Positions 3,173 to 19,658 of a DNA stretch of 24,930 nucleotides are shown piece after piece. Every line of letters begins with the position of its first letter. Within the stretch, counting starts at the first letter, position 1. The position numbers and the translations under genes are program-made. This stretch comes from a virus, in the IMG/VR virus record IMGVR_UViG_3300012919_000037, positions 1-24,930 of that record. The stretch is one strand, 5' to 3'. The notes beneath the pieces are model-generated. The model saw only the letters and a list, made by a program, of their open reading frames with translations, was not told where the DNA came from and did not search any database.

Positions 3173-3180
3173 TATTTATT
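3173..3180 (-). promoter_or_regulatory. Late-promoter-like AATAAATA 5 nt before the 699-aa gene
   Basis: AATAAATA overlaps the gp17 stop codon and is followed by only CATAC and then ATG. If used as a late promoter, the transcript would start at or next to the initiation codon. Confidence 0.4.
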
Positions 3181-4781: not shown

Positions 4782-4789
4782 TATTTAAT
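4782..4789 (-). promoter_or_regulatory. Late-promoter-like ATTAAATA 7 nt before gp17
   Basis: ATTAAATA is followed by CTTTACT and the gp17 ATG in a 38-bp gap that has no Shine-Dalgarno. The position fits the recurring TAAATA-to-start spacing seen at seven other genes here. Confidence 0.4.
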
Positions 4790-6631: not shown

Positions 6632-6639
6632 TATTTAGT
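6632..6639 (-). promoter_or_regulatory. Late-promoter-like ACTAAATA 8 nt before the 197-aa gene
   Basis: ACTAAATA includes CTAAATA, a late-type variant I recall as proposed for marine T4-like cyanophages. It lies in the 31-bp gap after the 2OG-oxygenase-like gene and ends 8 nt before the ATG. Confidence 0.4.
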
Positions 6640-8994: not shown

Positions 8995-10388
8995 TATGTT
9001 GTTATACTCGCTTTCTCTGTTGCAACTGTAACATTTTGATTATCCCTGCCAACTTTTATATAACCTTTGTTAACAAGTTTTCTTATGTCAGTAGTTACCT
9101 TTGTTCTGTAAACAGTTTTTACAGAGTCGGTTTGTGTGTTAAATTCTACATCGCTTTGTGCAACTGATAAACCTTTTCTCGAACCTATATCTTTATAGTA
9201 GATACCTGCCGCAACTTGATCTCTTACTGTTGTGTTATTTGAAACTAATCTAAACACTTCGTCTGCTGTTAAAAAATCAACTGAATTTGGAGTGTTGTTT
9301 ATTATTGTTGCATTTTTCTTTTCGTCATCTGATAAAGCAGTATCAACAGCAATAGCAGTTGCCAATCCTGTACCCACAATTATATCGCCAACTTGTGATC
9401 CTGTGCCACCTGTTGCTGTTTTTACAACTTCTTCTTTTATTATTCCTTTTAATTCTTGTTTAACATCTTTTGCTTTTTTCTTTTTAATTTTATTGGCAGT
9501 GTTTATTCCTGATAATATTGCACCAAGATAGTTTCCTGACCTCGCCGCACTTAGAACTGAACCCACTCCATCAATAATACCACCAGGTCCGAAAATACTA
9601 TTTCCTGTACCACCAAACACTGTTAAAGGTGAAGGTTCTTTATCATAGTGTAATTTTGCAAAACCAAATTTGCCCATCTCTTTTACAATGCCTGTGTCGT
9701 ACACAACAGTTTCGTAAAAAACTTGCATCTGATTTTGTAATATTCCTGCGCCATCACCTGCATCTAAATTGTCGTGACTAAAAGATCCTATTCTTGGATT
9801 GACTAAAGTAAATGATGTAAATCTTTGTTTTTGTAATGTAAAAATTTGTATGCTTCTTAGATATGGCTGACGTCTTGCTTTTGGTGTGTCCATGCCGTAT
9901 CTATTTGCAACTCTTGATTTGCTGTTATCATACATATCATCACGGCCATTTAAAACATAATCTTCTATAGATAAACCTTTACTATCTGCTATTTCATATT
10001 CATAATATTTTTTCCAAAAAGCATTTACAGTATCGGCATGGTCGTCATGAAAACTTATTACTATAGGTTGATATCCAATTCTTGTACCAACATATGTTTT
10101 TTTGTTATATTGATTTTTTTCTTCAACATTGAAATCGTATTTTGGAAGGTCACAAGCCTTCACAAGCATATTAAGTTCGTATTTTTCTTCTTTAGAAAAT
10201 TCAGTAGTACCAGATCCACCAGCACTCATTGATCCTTCGTTTATATCAAAATATACATGAAACAGGAACTTCTGTTTCGGCATGAGTTTATGATTGTCAG
10301 CAATATAGAGTTGCGAGGCATGACGGTAATCCTTCATACCTGGAAGGCCTGATGTGAATCCTTTTAAAAAATCATTTATACTTGGCAT
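8994..10388 (-). CDS. Tube-fold baseplate protein (gp48/gp54-like tail tube cap or initiator)
   Basis: 464 aa from the ATG at 10388 (MPSINDFLKGF). Residues ~40-140 (KFLFHVYFDIN..., LVKACDLPKYDF, YQPIVISFHDD, NAFWKKYYEYEIAD) have the pattern of T4-type tail-tube-fold proteins: a soluble beta domain, the binding loop and a helix before the last strand. Two T4 proteins with this fold, gp48 and gp54, cap the baseplate and nucleate the gp19 tube; which one this represents cannot be decided by eye. The ~250-330 region is Gly/Ala/Lys-rich and probably flexible. A GTG in frame at 10409 is rejected because it sits in the terminator T-tract. Confidence 0.65.
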   Translation of the reverse strand: MPSINDFLKGFTSGLPGMKDYRHASQLYIADNHKLMPKQKFLFHVYFDINEGSMSAGGSGTTEFSKEEKYELNMLVKACDLPKYDFNVEEKNQYNKKTYVGTRIGYQPIVISFHDDHADTVNAFWKKYYEYEIADSKGLSIEDYVLNGRDDMYDNSKSRVANRYGMDTPKARRQPYLRSIQIFTLQKQRFTSFTLVNPRIGSFSHDNLDAGDGAGILQNQMQVFYETVVYDTGIVKEMGKFGFAKLHYDKEPSPLTVFGGTGNSIFGPGGIIDGVGSVLSAARSGNYLGAILSGINTANKIKKKKAKDVKQELKGIIKEEVVKTATGGTGSQVGDIIVGTGLATAIAVDTALSDDEKKNATIINNTPNSVDFLTADEVFRLVSNNTTVRDQVAAGIYYKDIGSRKGLSVAQSDVEFNTQTDSVKTVYRTKVTTDIRKLVNKGYIKVGRDNQNVTVATEKASITT

Positions 10389-10396
10389 TGTATAGA

Positions 10397-10404
10397 TATT
10401 TATG
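10397..10404 (-). promoter_or_regulatory. Late-promoter motif CATAAATA between the gp19 terminator and the baseplate gene
   Basis: CATAAATA (seven of eight to TATAAATA) ends 8 nt before the ATG at 10388. It is the only promoter-like element seen between the terminator T-tract (to 10410) and the start codon, so this gene must be expressed either from here with a leader of about 3 nt or by read-through. Confidence 0.6.
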
Positions 10405-10409
10405 GCCAC

Positions 10410-10436
10410 AAAAAAAGCGCCATATAAAGGCGCTTT
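10410..10436 (-). terminator. Rho-independent terminator after tail tube gene 19
   Basis: On the minus strand an 8-bp stem (AAAGCGCC with GGCGCTTT, 10414-10421 and 10429-10436) closes a 7-nt loop and runs into a T-tract at 10416-10410. It lies 26 nt after the gp19 stop and is the only clear intrinsic terminator found in the window. It would isolate abundant gp19 transcription from the baseplate gene. Confidence 0.85.
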
Positions 10437-10461
10437 CCTTGTTTATAATTGCTTACGAAAC

Positions 10462-11088
10462 TTATTGTCCGCCACCAGTACTTAAAGTACCAAGTGTTCT
10501 TGTTACTGCTGTACCTATTCCTGTACCTTGTGGTGTTTGTATTGCGTTATCGTATCTCACTGACAACGTTATTGTTGCAGGATCTGATGTGTTGTATGCT
10601 AGTGTGTTGTAGTTAACGTTCTCTACATATGCACCATATAGTTCAAATGTTTCTAATACATTTGGTGCACTTGCGCCGTTACCACCATCAAGCATTTCAA
10701 TTCTTGCTGTAAATTTGTAGTCAATACCTGATGCCGCACTTGATTGTTCAAAGAAATCAAATTGTTTTTGAATCTGTTCACCAACTAATTTAGTTACTGA
10801 ATTGTTTACGTCATCTCTTAGGTTAATTGTAATCGGTTCCCAAGTATGTTTACCAGCAACGTATACTCTTGAGTTGTAAACATCTAGTGTTACGTTATCA
10901 AAAGTCAAGTTAGGTCTTGTAATATCTATAACTTGTTTTGTAAGTTCTGATCTTGGTGTTGATACTCCAAAATTTTCCAGGATCGCTCTAAAACGATATT
11001 GTAGTTTTGGCATCAATAAACCTTGTGATGCACTACTCTGGTCGTTTGCTAAAGGTACTGTAAATTTTGATAATGTTGATATTGCCAT
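10462..11088 (-). CDS. 19: Tail tube protein (gp19)
   Basis: 208 aa, against 163 in T4. It has the tail-tube pattern: LQYRFRAILENFG near the N-terminus, ITRPNLTFDNVTLDVYNSRVYVAGKHTWEPITINLRDD in the middle, and NVNYNTLAYNTSDPATITLSVRYDNA towards the C-terminus, typical of gp19 strands and the loop that stacks hexamer rings. It forms the inner tube inside the gp18 sheath through which DNA passes. It follows gp18 by 23 nt with an AGGAG and 6-nt spacing. A GGTAAATA (11099-11106) just upstream could add an independent late start. A strong terminator follows. Together these imply high, separately regulated expression. Confidence 0.92.
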   Translation of the reverse strand: MAISTLSKFTVPLANDQSSASQGLLMPKLQYRFRAILENFGVSTPRSELTKQVIDITRPNLTFDNVTLDVYNSRVYVAGKHTWEPITINLRDDVNNSVTKLVGEQIQKQFDFFEQSSAASGIDYKFTARIEMLDGGNGASAPNVLETFELYGAYVENVNYNTLAYNTSDPATITLSVRYDNAIQTPQGTGIGTAVTRTLGTLSTGGGQ

Positions 11089-11111: not shown

Positions 11112-14100
11112 TTAGTTCCCTAATTTTGCAATTTCTCCTGTGTTTTTAATTCTCAACGGTATGTAAATAAACTCAACTGATTTAACTGGTTCAATTGCTA
11201 TATCAACATACAACTCGTTTCTATCTATTCTAGTTGGAGTGTTGTTTGTTTCATCACAAACTACCAAGAAGTCAAATAATGCTCTTTGACCAACTAGTTC
11301 TAGTAAGAACGATTCAATTGCTTGTTTGATTTCGTTTCTAGTCAATTCATCGTTTGGTTCAAAGATGAACGGTTTTCCAATAGCATCTAATTGAGTTCTT
11401 AGATAAACTGCTAATCTAGAAACGTTAATTCTGTCAAGTGCCGAACTTGCAGATGTTTTAGTTAAGTTACCGAAGTTTACAATTCCTGCACCTGCAAAGA
11501 ATGTAATTGGGTTAACTTTTACTGTGTGCATCGCATCTCTGACACTTTCAGTTAGTGAAACTGTGTTAAACTCACCAGTTGATGCTTTAATATATCCAAC
11601 TGATGTTGCATTATCAACAATACCTCTTCTTGTACCTGCCGGAGCAAACCAAGGGAAAGCAATATTGTCGTTGTTCGCCAACACTCTCATAATCATATGT
11701 GATGGTGGAACAACAATATTCATTCCAGTATTGTCTGTTGCTAAACCTGATGGATAAAACACACCTAAGTGATCACTTGAACTTATTAGTCCGTCTTCAC
11801 CGTTATCAGTTGCGCCTGCTGTGTTATTTGCCCAAGACTGAATTTCTGTTGCAGTAGATCCTAATCTCATTGGAGTATCACCTACAACAAATGATGTGTT
11901 GTTTCTGTCAGTGTTTAAGTTTATCATGTTACTAATCAATTCTGGATATCCAGGTGTTGCAATTACGTTGAATCCTCTTTGGTCTTCTCTAATTGCTTGG
12001 TTAGTATCAATCTCTGATTTTAATTGTTGTACAACAACTTTTCTTTGTGCTTTTCTTCCAAATACGCCTGAACCATCTGCGTTGTTGTTAGATTTAGTTA
12101 CCCATCTGTCTGGGTAGTAACCTGCAACAGATTCATTGCTGAATCTTATGTTTCCTAATCCTGATGATCCTGAACTTGGATATTTTGTTGTTGTAATATA
12201 ACTGTTTTTGTACTCTTTAACGTTGTATCCAGAACGTCTTGTGTTCCATAGTAATATACCATTTGGATAATTTGCTGGATCAGGTGCATCTGGATCTAAG
12301 AAGTTATCACTTAAAAGATCTTTAATTGAACTTCCTGTTCCTGCTCCAGTATTTCCTGATGCATTTCTTTCGTTTTGAGTATGATATCTTGCGTCTGCAA
12401 ATACAACTCCGTCTTCTGTTGTTTGGTCTGTTTTGTCAACTAGTTCCCATGCCGCACCTGTTGTAGTTACTGCTACACTGTTAGATGTGTTAGATGAACT
12501 TATTGTTGCAGAAGTGTTGTATTTGTAAAGTTTTGGATAATTTTCTAAATCACTTGTATCAATCCATAAGTCTTTGTCAACTAGTGGAGTACCATCTGAC
12601 TGAGTAGTTGGTGCTGTTGCACTAAATTGTGGACCATTTGGATCTGTTGTACTGTAAGCATTTGCGTATCCAATGAAAGTAGTTCCGTTGTGTACCATAA
12701 TATCTGCTTCGTCAGTATTTGTATTGTACCATAATGCTCCGTCCGCCGGTTCATTAGATGGTGAATTAACTCCTGCTGTGTAACTTAATCTCTTCCAGTT
12801 AGAAGCCATTATGTCATTACCTACAGTTGAGTCTTCCGAATCACCTGTTGGTGTCACATACAAGTTGTCAATTAATGTTGTTGAATTTGCTGTGTAAGTT
12901 CCGTAAGCATGAGCAGTTGCGGTACTGAAACCAGCATCTGCTAATGGTGTTCCTGATGTTTCGTTCATTCTAAACTCACCACCAAGTTTGTGTTTGATTC
13001 TGATTGCACCTGCAAACTCACCTGAAGTAACTATGTCTGCTACTAGGTTAGTATGAGCACCACCACTTGATGGAGTGTTAAATGCAGTAACAAAGTCTTC
13101 TGAGTCTGCCGCAGTTGATCCATCTCCTGATTGTACAGTTATTGTTCTAGCACTGTCTAATGCTGATTGGTTCTTGATTGACTCTCTTACTGTGAAAGTT
13201 TCGTTGTGTGTGAAACTTGGATTTGTATTTTTAGAAATAATAACAGTTTCTCCACCTTCGTATCTAAACATTTGGAAGTCACCTAAGTTACCACTTGAGT
13301 TAGCACTGTCAACTGAACTTTCAGTTATGTTGAATTGTGTGTATAACGCACCAACTGATATACCTGTACCACCGTTTGTTGGATCGATGTTGTATATCGC
13401 CGCGTTGTGTGTTGCATACAATGGTGCTGACACAGTTGAAAATGTTCCTGATGCTGTGCTGTAAAGTTTAGCACTTATGTTCGCACCTGAATTTGCAGAA
13501 GTTGTTTTAAACCAAACTGATCCAGTTGGTCTATTGTCGTCTGCTGTTTTCCAAGTTGGTCTGCTAGTGTGAGCCGCTTGTAAGAATTGAGCACCTCTGT
13601 AAACACCTGAAGTAAATCCTAAATCTGCTAAAAGTGTTCCTGATACTGCTTCAACTCTAATTGAGTTACCACCTGCTATCGAACTGTCTCCAAGTCCAAT
13701 ACCACTGTGGAATAATTCTAGTTGTGATGTTGTTGCATTTACTGAAGCACTAACACCATCTATTCCTGCATTGTTAATGTCTGTTGCAGTTTGTGATAAT
13801 GTTGTACTTGTAGTTGTTACAGTTATGCCATTTATTTTAATTGCATGGCCCGCCGTAACTGATGCTGATGCAGTTGATTTCAATACTGGATGTGATCTAT
13901 GCCAAGCATTAGAACCTAATTGCACCCAAGTACCACTTGAATTTTTCAAGTAAATTTTGTTTGAAACGTGTGTTGTGTTGATCGCATAATCACCATTTAC
14001 GCCAACTGAAGTTTTAGGTGCTCCTGTTGAAGTGTTACCTACTAGATCATTTACACTTGTAATCAATATTGGAGTTATAGTTGTAAATTTTTGATCTGTT

Positions 14101-14552
14101 TGTGACCATTCAAATATTCCATATTTGCTTGTTGCAAGGTCAAACCAATATGTTCCATTTGCTGGTGCTGAAGTTGGTGCTGATGCACTTCCTACTAATT
14201 CGCTCATGTCTACGTTTGCTCTTAAAACGTATGCTCTGTTGGCAATTCCTAAAAATGAATATGCCGATTGTAATCCCCATTCATTAAGTTCGTAACCATG
14301 AATTGGGTTTCCTGAAGCGTCTTTGTAAAACTTTGGATCTCCAAAAGTTTCTGTTAATTCTCTTTGTGATGTAAGCAAATATACTGTATTTGCAGTTGCT
14401 GATTGTGTACCAGCCGCAGTTCCGTTGCCAGAACCTTTTGTTTTATCTGTCTGTGATGCTACTATAAAAAGTGGAGTTGTACCCGCATCTGATGGTACAT
14501 AAAAACTCTCGTTTACTACTGAAACTTCTACTCCTGGTGATGTTAAAGCCAT
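11112..14552 (-). CDS. 18: Tail sheath protein (gp18) with a very large insertion
   Basis: 1146 aa, against 659 in T4. Residues 1-118 match the sheath N-terminus (SPGVEVSVVNES, then ELTETFGDP and AYSFLGIANRAYVLRANVD), and residues ~770-1146 match the conserved C-terminal core (FNVIATPGYPEL, HMIMRVLANND, INVSRLAVYLRTQLD, ending YIPLRIKNTGEI) that contacts the tube and forms the contractile lattice. Residues ~120-770 are an insertion of Ser/Thr/Gly-rich beta modules expected on the outer tail surface. They include at least five short Gly-aromatic modules and two ~100-aa domains that end alike (SGTxLADxGF). Expression is strongly signalled: exact TATAAATA 40 nt upstream and AGGAG 8 nt before ATG. 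Confidence 0.95.
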   Translation of the reverse strand: MALTSPGVEVSVVNESFYVPSDAGTTPLFIVASQTDKTKGSGNGTAAGTQSATANTVYLLTSQRELTETFGDPKFYKDASGNPIHGYELNEWGLQSAYSFLGIANRAYVLRANVDMSELVGSASAPTSAPANGTYWFDLATSKYGIFEWSQTDQKFTTITPILITSVNDLVGNTSTGAPKTSVGVNGDYAINTTHVSNKIYLKNSSGTWVQLGSNAWHRSHPVLKSTASASVTAGHAIKINGITVTTTSTTLSQTATDINNAGIDGVSASVNATTSQLELFHSGIGLGDSSIAGGNSIRVEAVSGTLLADLGFTSGVYRGAQFLQAAHTSRPTWKTADDNRPTGSVWFKTTSANSGANISAKLYSTASGTFSTVSAPLYATHNAAIYNIDPTNGGTGISVGALYTQFNITESSVDSANSSGNLGDFQMFRYEGGETVIISKNTNPSFTHNETFTVRESIKNQSALDSARTITVQSGDGSTAADSEDFVTAFNTPSSGGAHTNLVADIVTSGEFAGAIRIKHKLGGEFRMNETSGTPLADAGFSTATAHAYGTYTANSTTLIDNLYVTPTGDSEDSTVGNDIMASNWKRLSYTAGVNSPSNEPADGALWYNTNTDEADIMVHNGTTFIGYANAYSTTDPNGPQFSATAPTTQSDGTPLVDKDLWIDTSDLENYPKLYKYNTSATISSSNTSNSVAVTTTGAAWELVDKTDQTTEDGVVFADARYHTQNERNASGNTGAGTGSSIKDLLSDNFLDPDAPDPANYPNGILLWNTRRSGYNVKEYKNSYITTTKYPSSGSSGLGNIRFSNESVAGYYPDRWVTKSNNNADGSGVFGRKAQRKVVVQQLKSEIDTNQAIREDQRGFNVIATPGYPELISNMINLNTDRNNTSFVVGDTPMRLGSTATEIQSWANNTAGATDNGEDGLISSSDHLGVFYPSGLATDNTGMNIVVPPSHMIMRVLANNDNIAFPWFAPAGTRRGIVDNATSVGYIKASTGEFNTVSLTESVRDAMHTVKVNPITFFAGAGIVNFGNLTKTSASSALDRINVSRLAVYLRTQLDAIGKPFIFEPNDELTRNEIKQAIESFLLELVGQRALFDFLVVCDETNNTPTRIDRNELYVDIAIEPVKSVEFIYIPLRIKNTGEIAKLGN
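12885..13871 (-). repeat. Duplicated ~100-aa domain within the gp18 insertion
   Basis: Two divergent copies, at residues ~228-321 (13590-13871) and ~448-556 (12885-13211). Both have a middle strand region followed by a matching end, SGTLLADLGFTSGVYRG and SGTPLADAGFSTATAHAYG. The first copy also has INGITVTTTSTTLSQTATDI and SASVNATTSQLELF, which resemble the flagellin/hook-type IN motif. The module at ~330-380 lies between them. Confidence 0.5.
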
Positions 14553-14654: not shown

Positions 14655-14662
14655 CGTAAATA
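14655..14662 (+). promoter_or_regulatory. Late-promoter-like CGTAAATA 5 nt before the HNH-like gene
   Basis: CGTAAATA is followed by CAGTT and the ATG at 14668. Only the TAAATA core matches the T4 late consensus, but the spacing equals that at the 699-aa gene and gp13. It supports the start at 14668 rather than a longer frame from 14557. Confidence 0.35.
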
Positions 14663-15582: not shown

Positions 15583-15611
15583 ATTATACTATTTTTTTAA
15601 ACGTTTTTCAA
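15583..15611 (-). promoter_or_regulatory. Sigma70-type promoter directly abutting the dNMP kinase start codon
   Basis: TTGAAA (15606-15611), a 17-bp spacer and TATAAT (15583-15588), inside the end of the 59-aa gene. Only 6 nt separate the -10 box from ATG, so +1 would be at or beside the A of ATG. Five of six and six of six matches at the ideal spacing make this a strong host-type promoter. Confidence 0.7.
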
Positions 15612-15798: not shown

Positions 15799-16560
15799 TT
15801 AACCAATAACAAAACTATGTGGAGTGCCACCTTCTGCAAAATTGTTCACTTCTGCATCTAGTTTTTCCATCTCTTGCATACCTTGATTTTTAAGGTCTGC
15901 ACCGTTCAATGATGTTCCGCCTTGTGGTCCAGCGATTGTGTTGAACTTAGATCTTGCTTCACCTAACATTACTTTTGAAACTGCTAGTGTGTAATCTCTG
16001 ATCCATGGTTTTGCGTATATGTCTTTGAACAAAGTTATATCAGGTCTAAAATTGTCAGTGTGCATCAATACTGTTTCTATGTCGGATCTAGGTTTTTGTG
16101 TAATAGTTAATTTTTTAGTTGCAACGTCAAAATGAAATTGAATAAATGAACCAAATAACTTTCCTACTAATTCTTGGTATGAAGCAAACGCATAGTAAGT
16201 CGCAAGTCCACCAGTCGCACCTGCTCTCAAAAGATATGTGTTTGTATATGCTAAATTAAATGGTTCAAATAATGTTCCACCTTCGCCACCTTCTGTTCTA
16301 GATCCTACTGTACGTCTAAACAATTTTCTCACGTTAATTACTTCATCAGGCAAAATGTAAGTGTTCTGATTTTCCTGCAATTTCAAGAATCCATATGATT
16401 CTTCAACAGCATTTGAACTTCTTTGTCTATATCTGTTTATTGCTCTTTCCAGTGCTATTTCGTAGTGTTTAGGGTCTAATTCAACGTCAATCATGCCCTC
16501 ACCGAGGTTAGTTTTAACGTATTCGAATATTTCTTGTTGACCTGTTTGTAGTTCTGACAT
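15799..16560 (-). CDS. 13: Neck protein (gp13)
   Basis: 253 aa from the ATG at 16560 (MSELQTGQQEIFEYVKTNLG); T4 gp13 is 309. The segment VELDPKHYEIALERAINRYRQRSSNAVEESYGFLKL is the characteristic helical N-terminal region of gp13 in T4-like phages, followed by NVRKLFRR and a mixed beta region, then DYTLAVSKVMLGEARSKF, the conserved helix of the neck ring. It sits on the completed head with gp14 to form the tail-docking site. A second ATG 6 nt upstream (16566) overlaps the CATAAATA motif and is less likely if that motif is the promoter. Its partner gp14 is divergent. Confidence 0.85.
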   Translation of the reverse strand: MSELQTGQQEIFEYVKTNLGEGMIDVELDPKHYEIALERAINRYRQRSSNAVEESYGFLKLQENQNTYILPDEVINVRKLFRRTVGSRTEGGEGGTLFEPFNLAYTNTYLLRAGATGGLATYYAFASYQELVGKLFGSFIQFHFDVATKKLTITQKPRSDIETVLMHTDNFRPDITLFKDIYAKPWIRDYTLAVSKVMLGEARSKFNTIAGPQGGTSLNGADLKNQGMQEMEKLDAEVNNFAEGGTPHSFVIG

Positions 16561-16565
16561 ACTCA

Positions 16566-16573
16566 TATTTATG
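16566..16573 (-). promoter_or_regulatory. Late-promoter motif CATAAATA 5 nt before gp13
   Basis: CATAAATA is followed by TGAGT and ATG. It is paired back to back with an AATAAATA for gp14 on the other strand, 15 bp apart, in a 44-bp divergent gap. Confidence 0.55.
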
Positions 16574-16588
16574 TGATGACCCGCATTC

Positions 16589-16596
16589 AATAAATA
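16589..16596 (+). promoter_or_regulatory. Late-promoter motif AATAAATA 8 nt before gp14
   Basis: AATAAATA is followed by TGTATGCT and the ATG at 16605. No Shine-Dalgarno is present. An ATG at 16596 overlaps the motif itself and is not the preferred start. Confidence 0.55.
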
Positions 16597-16604
16597 TGTA
16601 TGCT

Positions 16605-17771
16605 ATGCCACGATTATCAATTTTTAAGCCGGAAAAGGGCAATGATTACAAGTTTTTTGATCGCAACATCAAAGAGATGTTTACGGTCGGAGGCACCGAT
16701 TTACACCTACACAAATACCTAGGTCCATACGATCAAGGTGATACACAAAAAGATGGTGACGCTTCACCTACGCAACCAAATTATGCAGGTAGCAATATCA
16801 ACGAAAGAACAATTCAAGATTTACTATTTTTAGAAAACAGAGATAGAAAATATGCATCTGATATCTATCAAATACGTGGTATCTATAATGTGCAAGATCA
16901 AGATTTTAACCTATCACAATTTGGTATGTTTTTGCAAAATGATACACTATTCTTAACAGTTCATTTAAATGATACAGTTGAAAGAATTGGCAGAAAACCA
17001 ATGTCTGGTGATGTAATTGAATTGCCTCACATGAAAGAAGATTACAGTTTAGACGAAACTATACCAATTGCACTAAAAAGATTTTATGTTGTGGAAGATG
17101 TTAACAGAGCGGCAGAAGGATTTTCACAAACTTGGTGGCCTCACTTATTGAGATTAAAAATGAAATCATTAGTAGATTCACAAGAATACAGAGATATATT
17201 GGGCGACGCTACAACAACAGGATCTTTAGCAAGTTACATGAGTACGTTTAACAAAGAAAAAGAAATTAATGACAAAATTGTTGAACAAGCAGAATCAGAT
17301 GCACCAAAATCTGGATTCAATTACAAACAATATTATGTACAACCAATCGACGAAAGAGGTAACATTAGAACAGACAACGTAAATTCAACAGATCCGGTCA
17401 GTGGTGATAAACCAATCAATGCAACAATTGACACACCGGCAAGTTCACATTATGGATTTTACTATGACGGTGATGGTGTTGCACCCAACGGAGAACCAGC
17501 AGGATTTGGCACGTCATTTCCTCAATCAAACGTTGAAAAAGGCGATTACTGGTTACGCACAGACTTTTTACCAACTAGATTATTTAGATATGATGGTACC
17601 AGATGGGTCAAGGTCGAGGACAATATAAGATTAACTACAACAAACAATGACAGTAGAAGCAACTTTAAAACAAGTTTTGTTAATAACACTGCATCAGACA
17701 CAATTAACGGACTTACAGTGGAACAGAGACAGTCATTATCAAATGCATTGAAACCAAAGGCTGACGATTAA
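16605..17771 (+). CDS. 14: Neck protein (gp14) with a C-terminal extension
   Basis: 388 aa, against 256 in T4. The start MPRLSIFKPEKGNDYKFFD fits the gp14 N-termini of marine T4-like phages. DFNLSQFGMFLQNDTLFLTV followed by PMSGDVIELPH aligns in order with the T4 gp14 segment FFSNFGMQVQDEVTLSI...PKEGDLIYFP. gp14 joins gp13 on the head portal for tail attachment. Residues ~240-388 are an extension absent from T4, containing a module at 294-338 (GDYWLRTDFLPTRLFRYDG then TRWVKVED) related to ones in gp15 and gp18. The gene is co-transcribed with gp15 through a TAATG overlap. Confidence 0.85.
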   Translation: MPRLSIFKPEKGNDYKFFDRNIKEMFTVGGTDLHLHKYLGPYDQGDTQKDGDASPTQPNYAGSNINERTIQDLLFLENRDRKYASDIYQIRGIYNVQDQDFNLSQFGMFLQNDTLFLTVHLNDTVERIGRKPMSGDVIELPHMKEDYSLDETIPIALKRFYVVEDVNRAAEGFSQTWWPHLLRLKMKSLVDSQEYRDILGDATTTGSLASYMSTFNKEKEINDKIVEQAESDAPKSGFNYKQYYVQPIDERGNIRTDNVNSTDPVSGDKPINATIDTPASSHYGFYYDGDGVAPNGEPAGFGTSFPQSNVEKGDYWLRTDFLPTRLFRYDGTRWVKVEDNIRLTTTNNDSRSNFKTSFVNNTASDTINGLTVEQRQSLSNALKPKADD

Positions 17772-19114: not shown

Positions 19115-19198
19115 GAAGGAATATACACTGCTGGTAATTGGACCATTGTTGTAGATGGTGGTTATACTGGATATGATTCAGCAACTGATACTCCTTGA
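17771..19198 (+). CDS. 15: Tail completion/sheath stabiliser protein (gp15) with a C-terminal extension
   Basis: 475 aa, against 272 in T4. Residues 1-225 match gp15: HFYEGQVRKFLTQFIRVLSN at the start, SVPVMYGDLTRQ (T4 RVPITYASKE), MPSPFRLNVSADIYSSNTDQ followed by QILEQILYLFNPDFE (T4 EQILPYFQPHF), and LTFSMPIWLSPPV (T4 FEVNGWMYPPV). gp15 forms the hexameric cap on the completed tail that binds the neck. Residues ~230-475 are an added beta-rich extension with two Trp modules (GDIIEYDGSKWVKKF at ~402-416 and IQYRFNGTEWVKS at ~435-447). The start overlaps the gp14 stop as TAATG. Confidence 0.88.
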   Translation: MLHFYEGQVRKFLTQFIRVLSNFSVETGKRADGQINLRSVPVMYGDLTRQVANIIRNNSENALQYAPRIACYVRELNYDRERMQNPYHVEKQHLRQRDKDSDGNYTNKLGAGYTVEKVMPSPFRLNVSADIYSSNTDQKLQILEQILYLFNPDFEIQKTDNYIDWTSLSYIELTGIQFSSRTIPVGVDSEIDVASLTFSMPIWLSPPVKVKKLGVVEKIIMSIYDDEGTINKGLISGDLLSKSFITPNNFGLLVTGNKLRLLGTTGVNVKSGGDGFYTGANEPSNYDPFDTFGPPVNWKLLLDQYGKVTNGTSQVRLMQPNGNEIVGTISTTTLDDTILLFNIDSDTIPANTLTSVKKIINPTTFAPGTPASGDRYLIIDQLGDSTATQQSSTWGNIVASVGDIIEYDGSKWVKKFDASHPDSTQHYVTNLNTGIQYRFNGTEWVKSYEGIYTAGNWTIVVDGGYTGYDSATDTP

Positions 19199-19223
19199 TC
19201 TCAAATAAAATAATTGCTATAAT
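19195..19223 (+). promoter_or_regulatory. Sigma70-type extended -10 promoter directly abutting the Nudix start codon
   Basis: TTGATC (19195-19200), a 17-bp spacer and TATAAT (19218-19223), with an extended-10 TGC directly before it. Exactly 6 nt separate TATAAT from ATG at 19230, the same geometry as the dNMP kinase promoter. The -35 overlaps the gp15 stop codon. Confidence 0.7.
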
Positions 19224-19229
19224 AATATT

Positions 19230-19658
19230 ATGAAACCAGATATAGTTTGTTCAGGTGCGTTATTTTACGCAACAAGCACAAAACGTTTTTTGTTATTGCA
19301 AAGAACTGACAAGAAAACTAAAGGTATGTGGGGTTTGGTAGGTGGCATGGCACATTACACTGAATCAGCATTTGAAGGTTTACAAAGAGAAATTGAAGAA
19401 GAAATTGGTACTACACCAAAATTTAAAAAAACTATTCCACTAGAAATGTTCACATCAAACGATCAAAAATTTTATTTTAACACTTATCTTATTGCAGTGG
19501 ACGGCGAATTCATTCCAAAATTAAACAGAGAACATTCTGGATACTGCTGGTGTGCTTTTGAATGTTGGCCCAAAAATTTACACGCAGGTTTGAGAAATAC
19601 TTTGAATAACAAAAGTATAAAAGGTAAGTTACAAACTATTTTAGATTTAATAGTTTAA
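19230..19658 (+). CDS. Nudix hydrolase
   Basis: 142 aa, a usual single-domain Nudix size. The box runs G39-x5-E45-x7-R53-E-I-E-E57-E58-x-G60, an exact GX5EX7REUXEEXG match with all metal-binding glutamates present, so it should be an active pyrophosphohydrolase. The substrate cannot be read from the sequence; nucleotide sugars, dNTPs, ADP-ribose or RNA caps are family options (T4 encodes NudE). It has its own host-type promoter and no Shine-Dalgarno, implying early expression apart from the late gp14-gp15 unit that ends 31 nt upstream. Its stop TAA overlaps the opposing fibre gene stop within a shared TTAA. Confidence 0.92.
   Translation: MKPDIVCSGALFYATSTKRFLLLQRTDKKTKGMWGLVGGMAHYTESAFEGLQREIEEEIGTTPKFKKTIPLEMFTSNDQKFYFNTYLIAVDGEFIPKLNREHSGYCWCAFECWPKNLHAGLRNTLNNKSIKGKLQTILDLIV

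Follow-up and report, generated by a model that had tools for sequence, protein, structure and literature searches.

The locus at 10388-10442 raises the question of how a phage gene is expressed when a terminator, a promoter-like box and the start codon follow directly upon one another. An earlier note on this DNA held that the gene must be either near-leaderless or served by read-through, and the positions on which it relied, namely a terminator ending at 10410, a box at 10397-10404, an ATG at 10388 (10388-10386) and 21 bp between the T tract and this ATG, were all confirmed on the minus strand. We put at about 85% the probability that the box, CATAAATA, is a gp55-type late promoter which gives a near-leaderless mRNA and is insulated by the terminator from the sheath/tube unit, a reading built on sequence comparison.

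The window, i.e. the whole stretch of DNA that was analysed (24,930 nt), represents 24.9 kb of the genome of an uncultured T4-superfamily jumbo-type myovirus. The encoded terminase shares 44-54% identity with those of the jumbo phages PA5oct, Atu_ph07, Phosso and CBB, the nearest cultured relatives (54% to PA5oct, 47-48% to Atu_ph07 and Phosso); its tail tube protein is 42-49% identical to those of PA5oct, Atu_ph07 and Phosso, and the gene order is similar. Host assignment via MAG contigs returned Pelagibacter, Rickettsiales, Betaproteobacteria and other labels, likely through mis-binning, and we claim no host; when one Pelagibacter MAG was scanned for TATAAT-ATG, the result was barely above control. 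Tail tube and gp55 genes of the present phage type are found on the contigs PBPT01000082 (L228, 153 kb) and PBPT01000016 (L229, 335 kb), which are labelled as Neomarinimicrobiota MAG RS350 and are probably mis-binned jumbo phage genomes.

The gene beginning at 10388 had been called a baseplate gene, an identity drawn from its position. Its sequence says instead that the 464-aa product is a tail tube paralogue (PHROG 4542; profile comparison E = 2.4e-5), the PHROG tail tube profile matching residues 35-240. A gp48-type tail-cap/baseplate identity was not supported, the profile comparison against the gp48-type proteins of HTVC008M and Mosig giving E = 0.52, with only two sequences and low sensitivity. 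No sequence relative of the protein was found in the PDB, and its AlphaFold model was poor (pLDDT 43). By comparison of relatives, translation begins at ATG 10388, because variation in the first 17 codons falls mainly on third positions, with a summed heterozygosity of 3.0/1.5/7.5 over the three codon positions in 138 distinct relative sequences.

On the minus strand, the end of the tail tube gene is followed by a hairpin, a T7 tract, GTGGC, CATAAATA, the spacer TCTATACA and the ATG. The hairpin, AAAGCGCC-TTTATAT-GGCGCTTT, lies at 10436-10414 and is extendable; it folds at -20.7 kcal/mol, with z = -4.9 against shuffles. Its arms covary among relatives (GCGCC/GGCGC vs GCGTC/GACGC, with G-U intermediates present). 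A G+C-rich hairpin supported by covariation is followed by at least five U, here the T7 tract at 10416-10410, and the intrinsic terminator claimed from the letters alone is borne out by fold, tract and covariation. The interval between T tract and box (10405-10409) holds a GTGRC which is nearly invariant in relatives, lies outside both hairpin core and box, and is absent before other late boxes. An Rfam search gave no match. The features are collected in the table.

Table. Features of the locus and other promoter-start pairs in the window.
Feature	Position	Strand	Basis
AATAAATA box, 5 nt before ATG 3167, virion structural protein; predicted fully leaderless	3173..3180	-	box spacing
TTAAATA variant box, 7 nt before terminase ATG 4774	4782..4788	-	box spacing
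CTAAATA variant box, 8 nt before ATG 6623	6632..6638	-	box spacing
Predicted near-leaderless gene, tail-tube-like structural protein, 464 aa	8994..10388	-	PHROG 4542/13438; tube paralogue; coding from ATG
Predicted +1, 3-nt leader ACA before AUG	10391..10391	-	inferred from T4 late-promoter geometry
CATAAATA, T4-type late promoter box (-13 to -6)	10397..10404	-	conservation, spacing; T4 geometry PMC1524935
Intrinsic terminator (hairpin + T7 tract), 3' of tail tube gene	10410..10442	-	fold z -4.9; arm covariation; conserved in about 140 loci
Tail tube protein; GTAAATA box then GGAG before ATG	10462..11088	-	PHROG 4542
Tail sheath gene; late box 14598-14592, 39 nt upstream, SD AAGGAG; leadered control	11112..14552	-	SD in 23/23 relatives
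GTAAATA variant box, 5 nt before ATG 14668, about 119-aa protein	14656..14662	+	box spacing
Sigma70-like TTGAAA-17-TATAAT, 6 nt before dNMP kinase ATG 15576; predicted leaderless	15583..15611	-	promoter spacing
CATAAATA box, 5 nt before ATG 16560, Ad2-like connector	16566..16573	-	n = 5 in 15/15 distinct sequences
AATAAATA box, 8 nt before ATG 16605, virion protein	16589..16596	+	box spacing
Sigma70-like TTGATC-17-TATAAT, TG before second hexamer, 6 nt before NUDIX hydrolase ATG 19230; predicted leaderless	19195..19223	+	promoter spacing

Conservation was assessed in relatives from IMG/VR, with n denoting the number of nucleotides between box and ATG and with start codons assigned from ORFs, except that of the cassette gene. 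The order of tube stop, hairpin, T7, GTGRCY, NATAAATA, short spacer and ATG is retained in about 140 relatives. A terminator followed by NTAAATA, 4 to 8 nt and ATG was found in 115 distinct contexts, at spacings of 4 (1), 5 (81), 6 (17), 7 (8) and 8 (8), so that the length of the spacer is held while its letters vary widely. Two distant relatives keep the layout with different hairpins, L226 with CTAAATACTCATATG and the box CTAAATA, and L228 with GATAAATATTAATATG and the box GATAAATA, both at n = 5. Where terminator and promoter are both missing (L143, L144, L150, L225), GAGGAGG precedes the ATG instead. By these alignments, the arrangement of terminator, box and ATG is not a matter of chance. 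In L135 and L136, an insertion of about 380 nt separates the conserved cassette from the tail tube gene.

The 8-bp box at 10404-10397 agrees with the late-promoter pattern NATAAATA, which is known in T4 and cyanophages (PMC1524935; PMC2984593), and it is conserved in relatives. In T4 the late box extends from -13 to -6 (PMC1524935). With a spacer of 5 nt, +1 would therefore fall on the A of the ATG, and the 8-nt spacer at this locus predicts a leader of 3 nt rather than 0. For a sigma70-like hexamer, at -12 to -7, n = 6 leads to the same +1. An unbiased count of positional 6-mers upstream of 732 gene starts was topped by TAAATA at n = 5 (121 vs 0.2 expected). Across relatives, TATAAT peaked at n = 6 (44, with 2 and 5 at the neighbouring positions), mostly before dNMP kinase and also before NUDIX genes. 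That two promoter types with different spacings imply the same +1 is the strongest argument, at the level of sequence, for leaderless mRNAs.

Distinct copies of ATAAATA in relatives precede an ORF in 196 of 211 cases, and their spacing falls at n = 4 (4), 5 (73), 6 (31), 7 (11) and 8 (23), with only 2 below 4, which makes a sharp floor at 5. The families with ATAAATA close to the start are the tail-tube-like gene, the virion proteins of 3167 and 16605 and the connector of 16560; variant boxes lie upstream of the terminase, 6623, 8163-type and 14668-type genes. An SD was found in none of the late-box starts at n = 5-8 and is often present at n = 12-60 (14 genomes or fragments). In relatives, the sheath box lies 29-41 nt upstream, and all 23 distinct sequences have an SD. 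Relatives are not independent of one another, and the pooled family-level data are partly phylogenetically dependent; the strength of the evidence lies in this pooling, as single-genome box counts in larger relatives are small and barely above permuted-motif controls.

Within the window, the raw count of ATAAATA is uninformative, since 6 copies were found against 10.3 expected, i.e. there is no over-representation, and it is position that matters. All six lie just upstream of gene starts, four of them at a distance of 5-8 nt from an ATG; for 20 permuted 7-mers, the corresponding mean was 0.5 and the maximum 1. At 16560-16605, two genes predicted to be leaderless, with their ATGs 44 bp apart, would be served by divergent late boxes about 16 bp from each other. 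The longest-ORF starts 16590 (TTG) and 16596 (ATG) are probably wrong, because they precede the predicted +1 or overlap a promoter box. At the tail tube gene, the box is followed directly by GGAGAAACAC-ATG, and many relatives have a perfect box, ATAAATAGGAGAAACAG. A transcript from this box would exclude the SD, which would thus serve read-through mRNA only.

In the textbook system of T4 late transcription, promoters of the form TATAAATA are used with gp55, gp33 and gp45, and late genes usually have SD leaders. The locus resembles it in its 8-bp box with a variable first base (NATAAATA, as in cyanophage S-PM2), in the late structural genes served and in the gp55 homologue of its relatives. This homologue (PHROG 234) adjoins a gene resembling a gp47-type nuclease in a 121.8-kb relative that carries the cassette (gp55 match E = 3e-26), and is also present in a 335-kb relative and in PA5oct; the gp55 gene lies outside the 24.9-kb fragment and is known here from relatives. 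The present phage, with boxes mostly at 5-8 nt and no SD, contrasts with T4, where the boxes keep a distance of 12-35 nt from the ATG, 24 of 34 come with an SD, and 5-8 nt is not represented. The jumbo phages PA5oct, Atu_ph07, Phosso and CBB likewise differ, their late boxes lying mostly 10-40 nt upstream with n = 5-8 absent or at chance level. The distances were 10-39 nt in Syn9, 20-40 in Atu_ph07 and 14-39 in CBB, none at 5-8, and boxes at n = 5-8 were near chance level in PA5oct, P-SSM4 and Melnitz.

For some genes, a similar spacing was observed in the cultured pelagimyophages HTVC008M and Mosig EXVC030M (SAR11, Kyanoviridae), where SD-less late boxes at n = 5-8 stand beside SD-leadered late genes. 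HTVC008M has 12 such starts (permuted motifs: mean 1.2, maximum 7) and Mosig has 7 (mean 1.9, maximum 5), although their proportion is lower than here and the structural gene families are different. All five annotated CDS starts checked in HTVC008M (6280, 7562, 19456, 31132 and 49760) coincide with n = 5 sites. The start at 19456 (KC465899) belongs to an annotated tail-tube-associated baseplate gene with a late box exactly 5 nt before its ATG, a parallel case with no detected homology. No description of this feature in the two phages was found in the literature searched. Leaderless middle and late mRNAs with no leader or SD are described for the Thermus phage phiYS40 (PMC3594737). The likeness to our phage, for which such mRNAs are predicted, is limited by the other phage lineage and host of phiYS40, and by the T4/gp55-type promoter and the coexistence of leadered and leaderless genes here.

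Most of the mRNA for the tail-tube-like gene might instead come from the sheath/tube promoter through a leaky terminator, the box being weak or redundant. The sheath, tube and tail-tube-like genes do lie in order on one strand, and some relatives without the terminator have an SD start (L144, L225). However, the hairpin is strong, covarying and followed by T7, box and spacing are conserved in about 140 loci, and a read-through mRNA would itself be without an SD, whereas the relatives that rely on read-through have AGGAGG instead. We consider this explanation unlikely. Between the two options of the earlier note, the near-leaderless one is favoured by a spacing that is conserved while the spacer letters change, by TATAAT at n = 6 and by the lack of an SD. 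Read-through mRNA, also without an SD, could contribute to expression of the tail-tube-like gene.

It is more improbable still that the A/T-rich box acts in translation, for instance as an enhancer of the S1 or A/U kind, or that it arises as a side effect of TAA stops before the ATG. The TAA of upstream genes does lie within some GTAAATA boxes, and composition alone hardly separates leaderless promoter signals from S1-binding A/U signals (PMC5397173). But ATAAATA is a known late promoter of T4 and cyanophages (PMC1524935; PMC2984593), the box at 10404-10397 lies about 57 nt past the preceding stop codon, and an identical box stands 39 nt upstream of the sheath gene, together with an SD. Permuted A/T motifs moreover lack the sharp 5-nt floor, and TATAAT has a different spacing, one consistent with a promoter. 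Least probable of all, the promoter could be real with a transcription start inside the gene and use of the downstream in-frame ATG (M18). The N-terminal residues do fall outside the tail tube profile match, yet coding periodicity and a conserved MPSINNFLxGF are seen over codons 1-17, and hardly any box stands at n < 5, which fits a need for the ATG to be transcribed.

Under the gp55-type promoter reading, CATAAATA would be read by host RNA polymerase with a phage gp55-like sigma, presumably initiating at about 10391 and giving an SD-less leader some 3 nt long (relatives: 0-3 nt). Such an mRNA would be translated through recognition of its 5'-terminal AUG. The hairpin-T7 terminator would stop the transcripts of the presumably highly expressed sheath/tube unit, and the tail-tube-like protein, probably needed in fewer copies, and the genes after it may depend mainly on their own late promoter, which suggests a role in dosage. 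Several other genes of the phage would use the same promoter-ATG design.

Our literature search, which was not exhaustive, found nothing that joins T4-type late promoters with leaderless mRNAs, and their leaderless use on many genes appears to be new. Gene calling is also affected, as longest-ORF starts such as 16590 and 16596 show. We lean slightly towards the broader idea that a marine T4-superfamily lineage, in part including HTVC008M and Mosig, has converted its gp55 late regulon to leaderless expression. Most promoter-proximal structural genes would then be translated by 5'-AUG recognition and a few high-output genes, the sheath gene among them, would retain SD leaders, a two-level translation scheme matched to leaderless-tolerant hosts. 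In these phages the promoter appears to abut the start codon, coupling the start of transcription to that of translation, and leaderless translation is predicted for very abundant uncultured marine T4-related giant phages.
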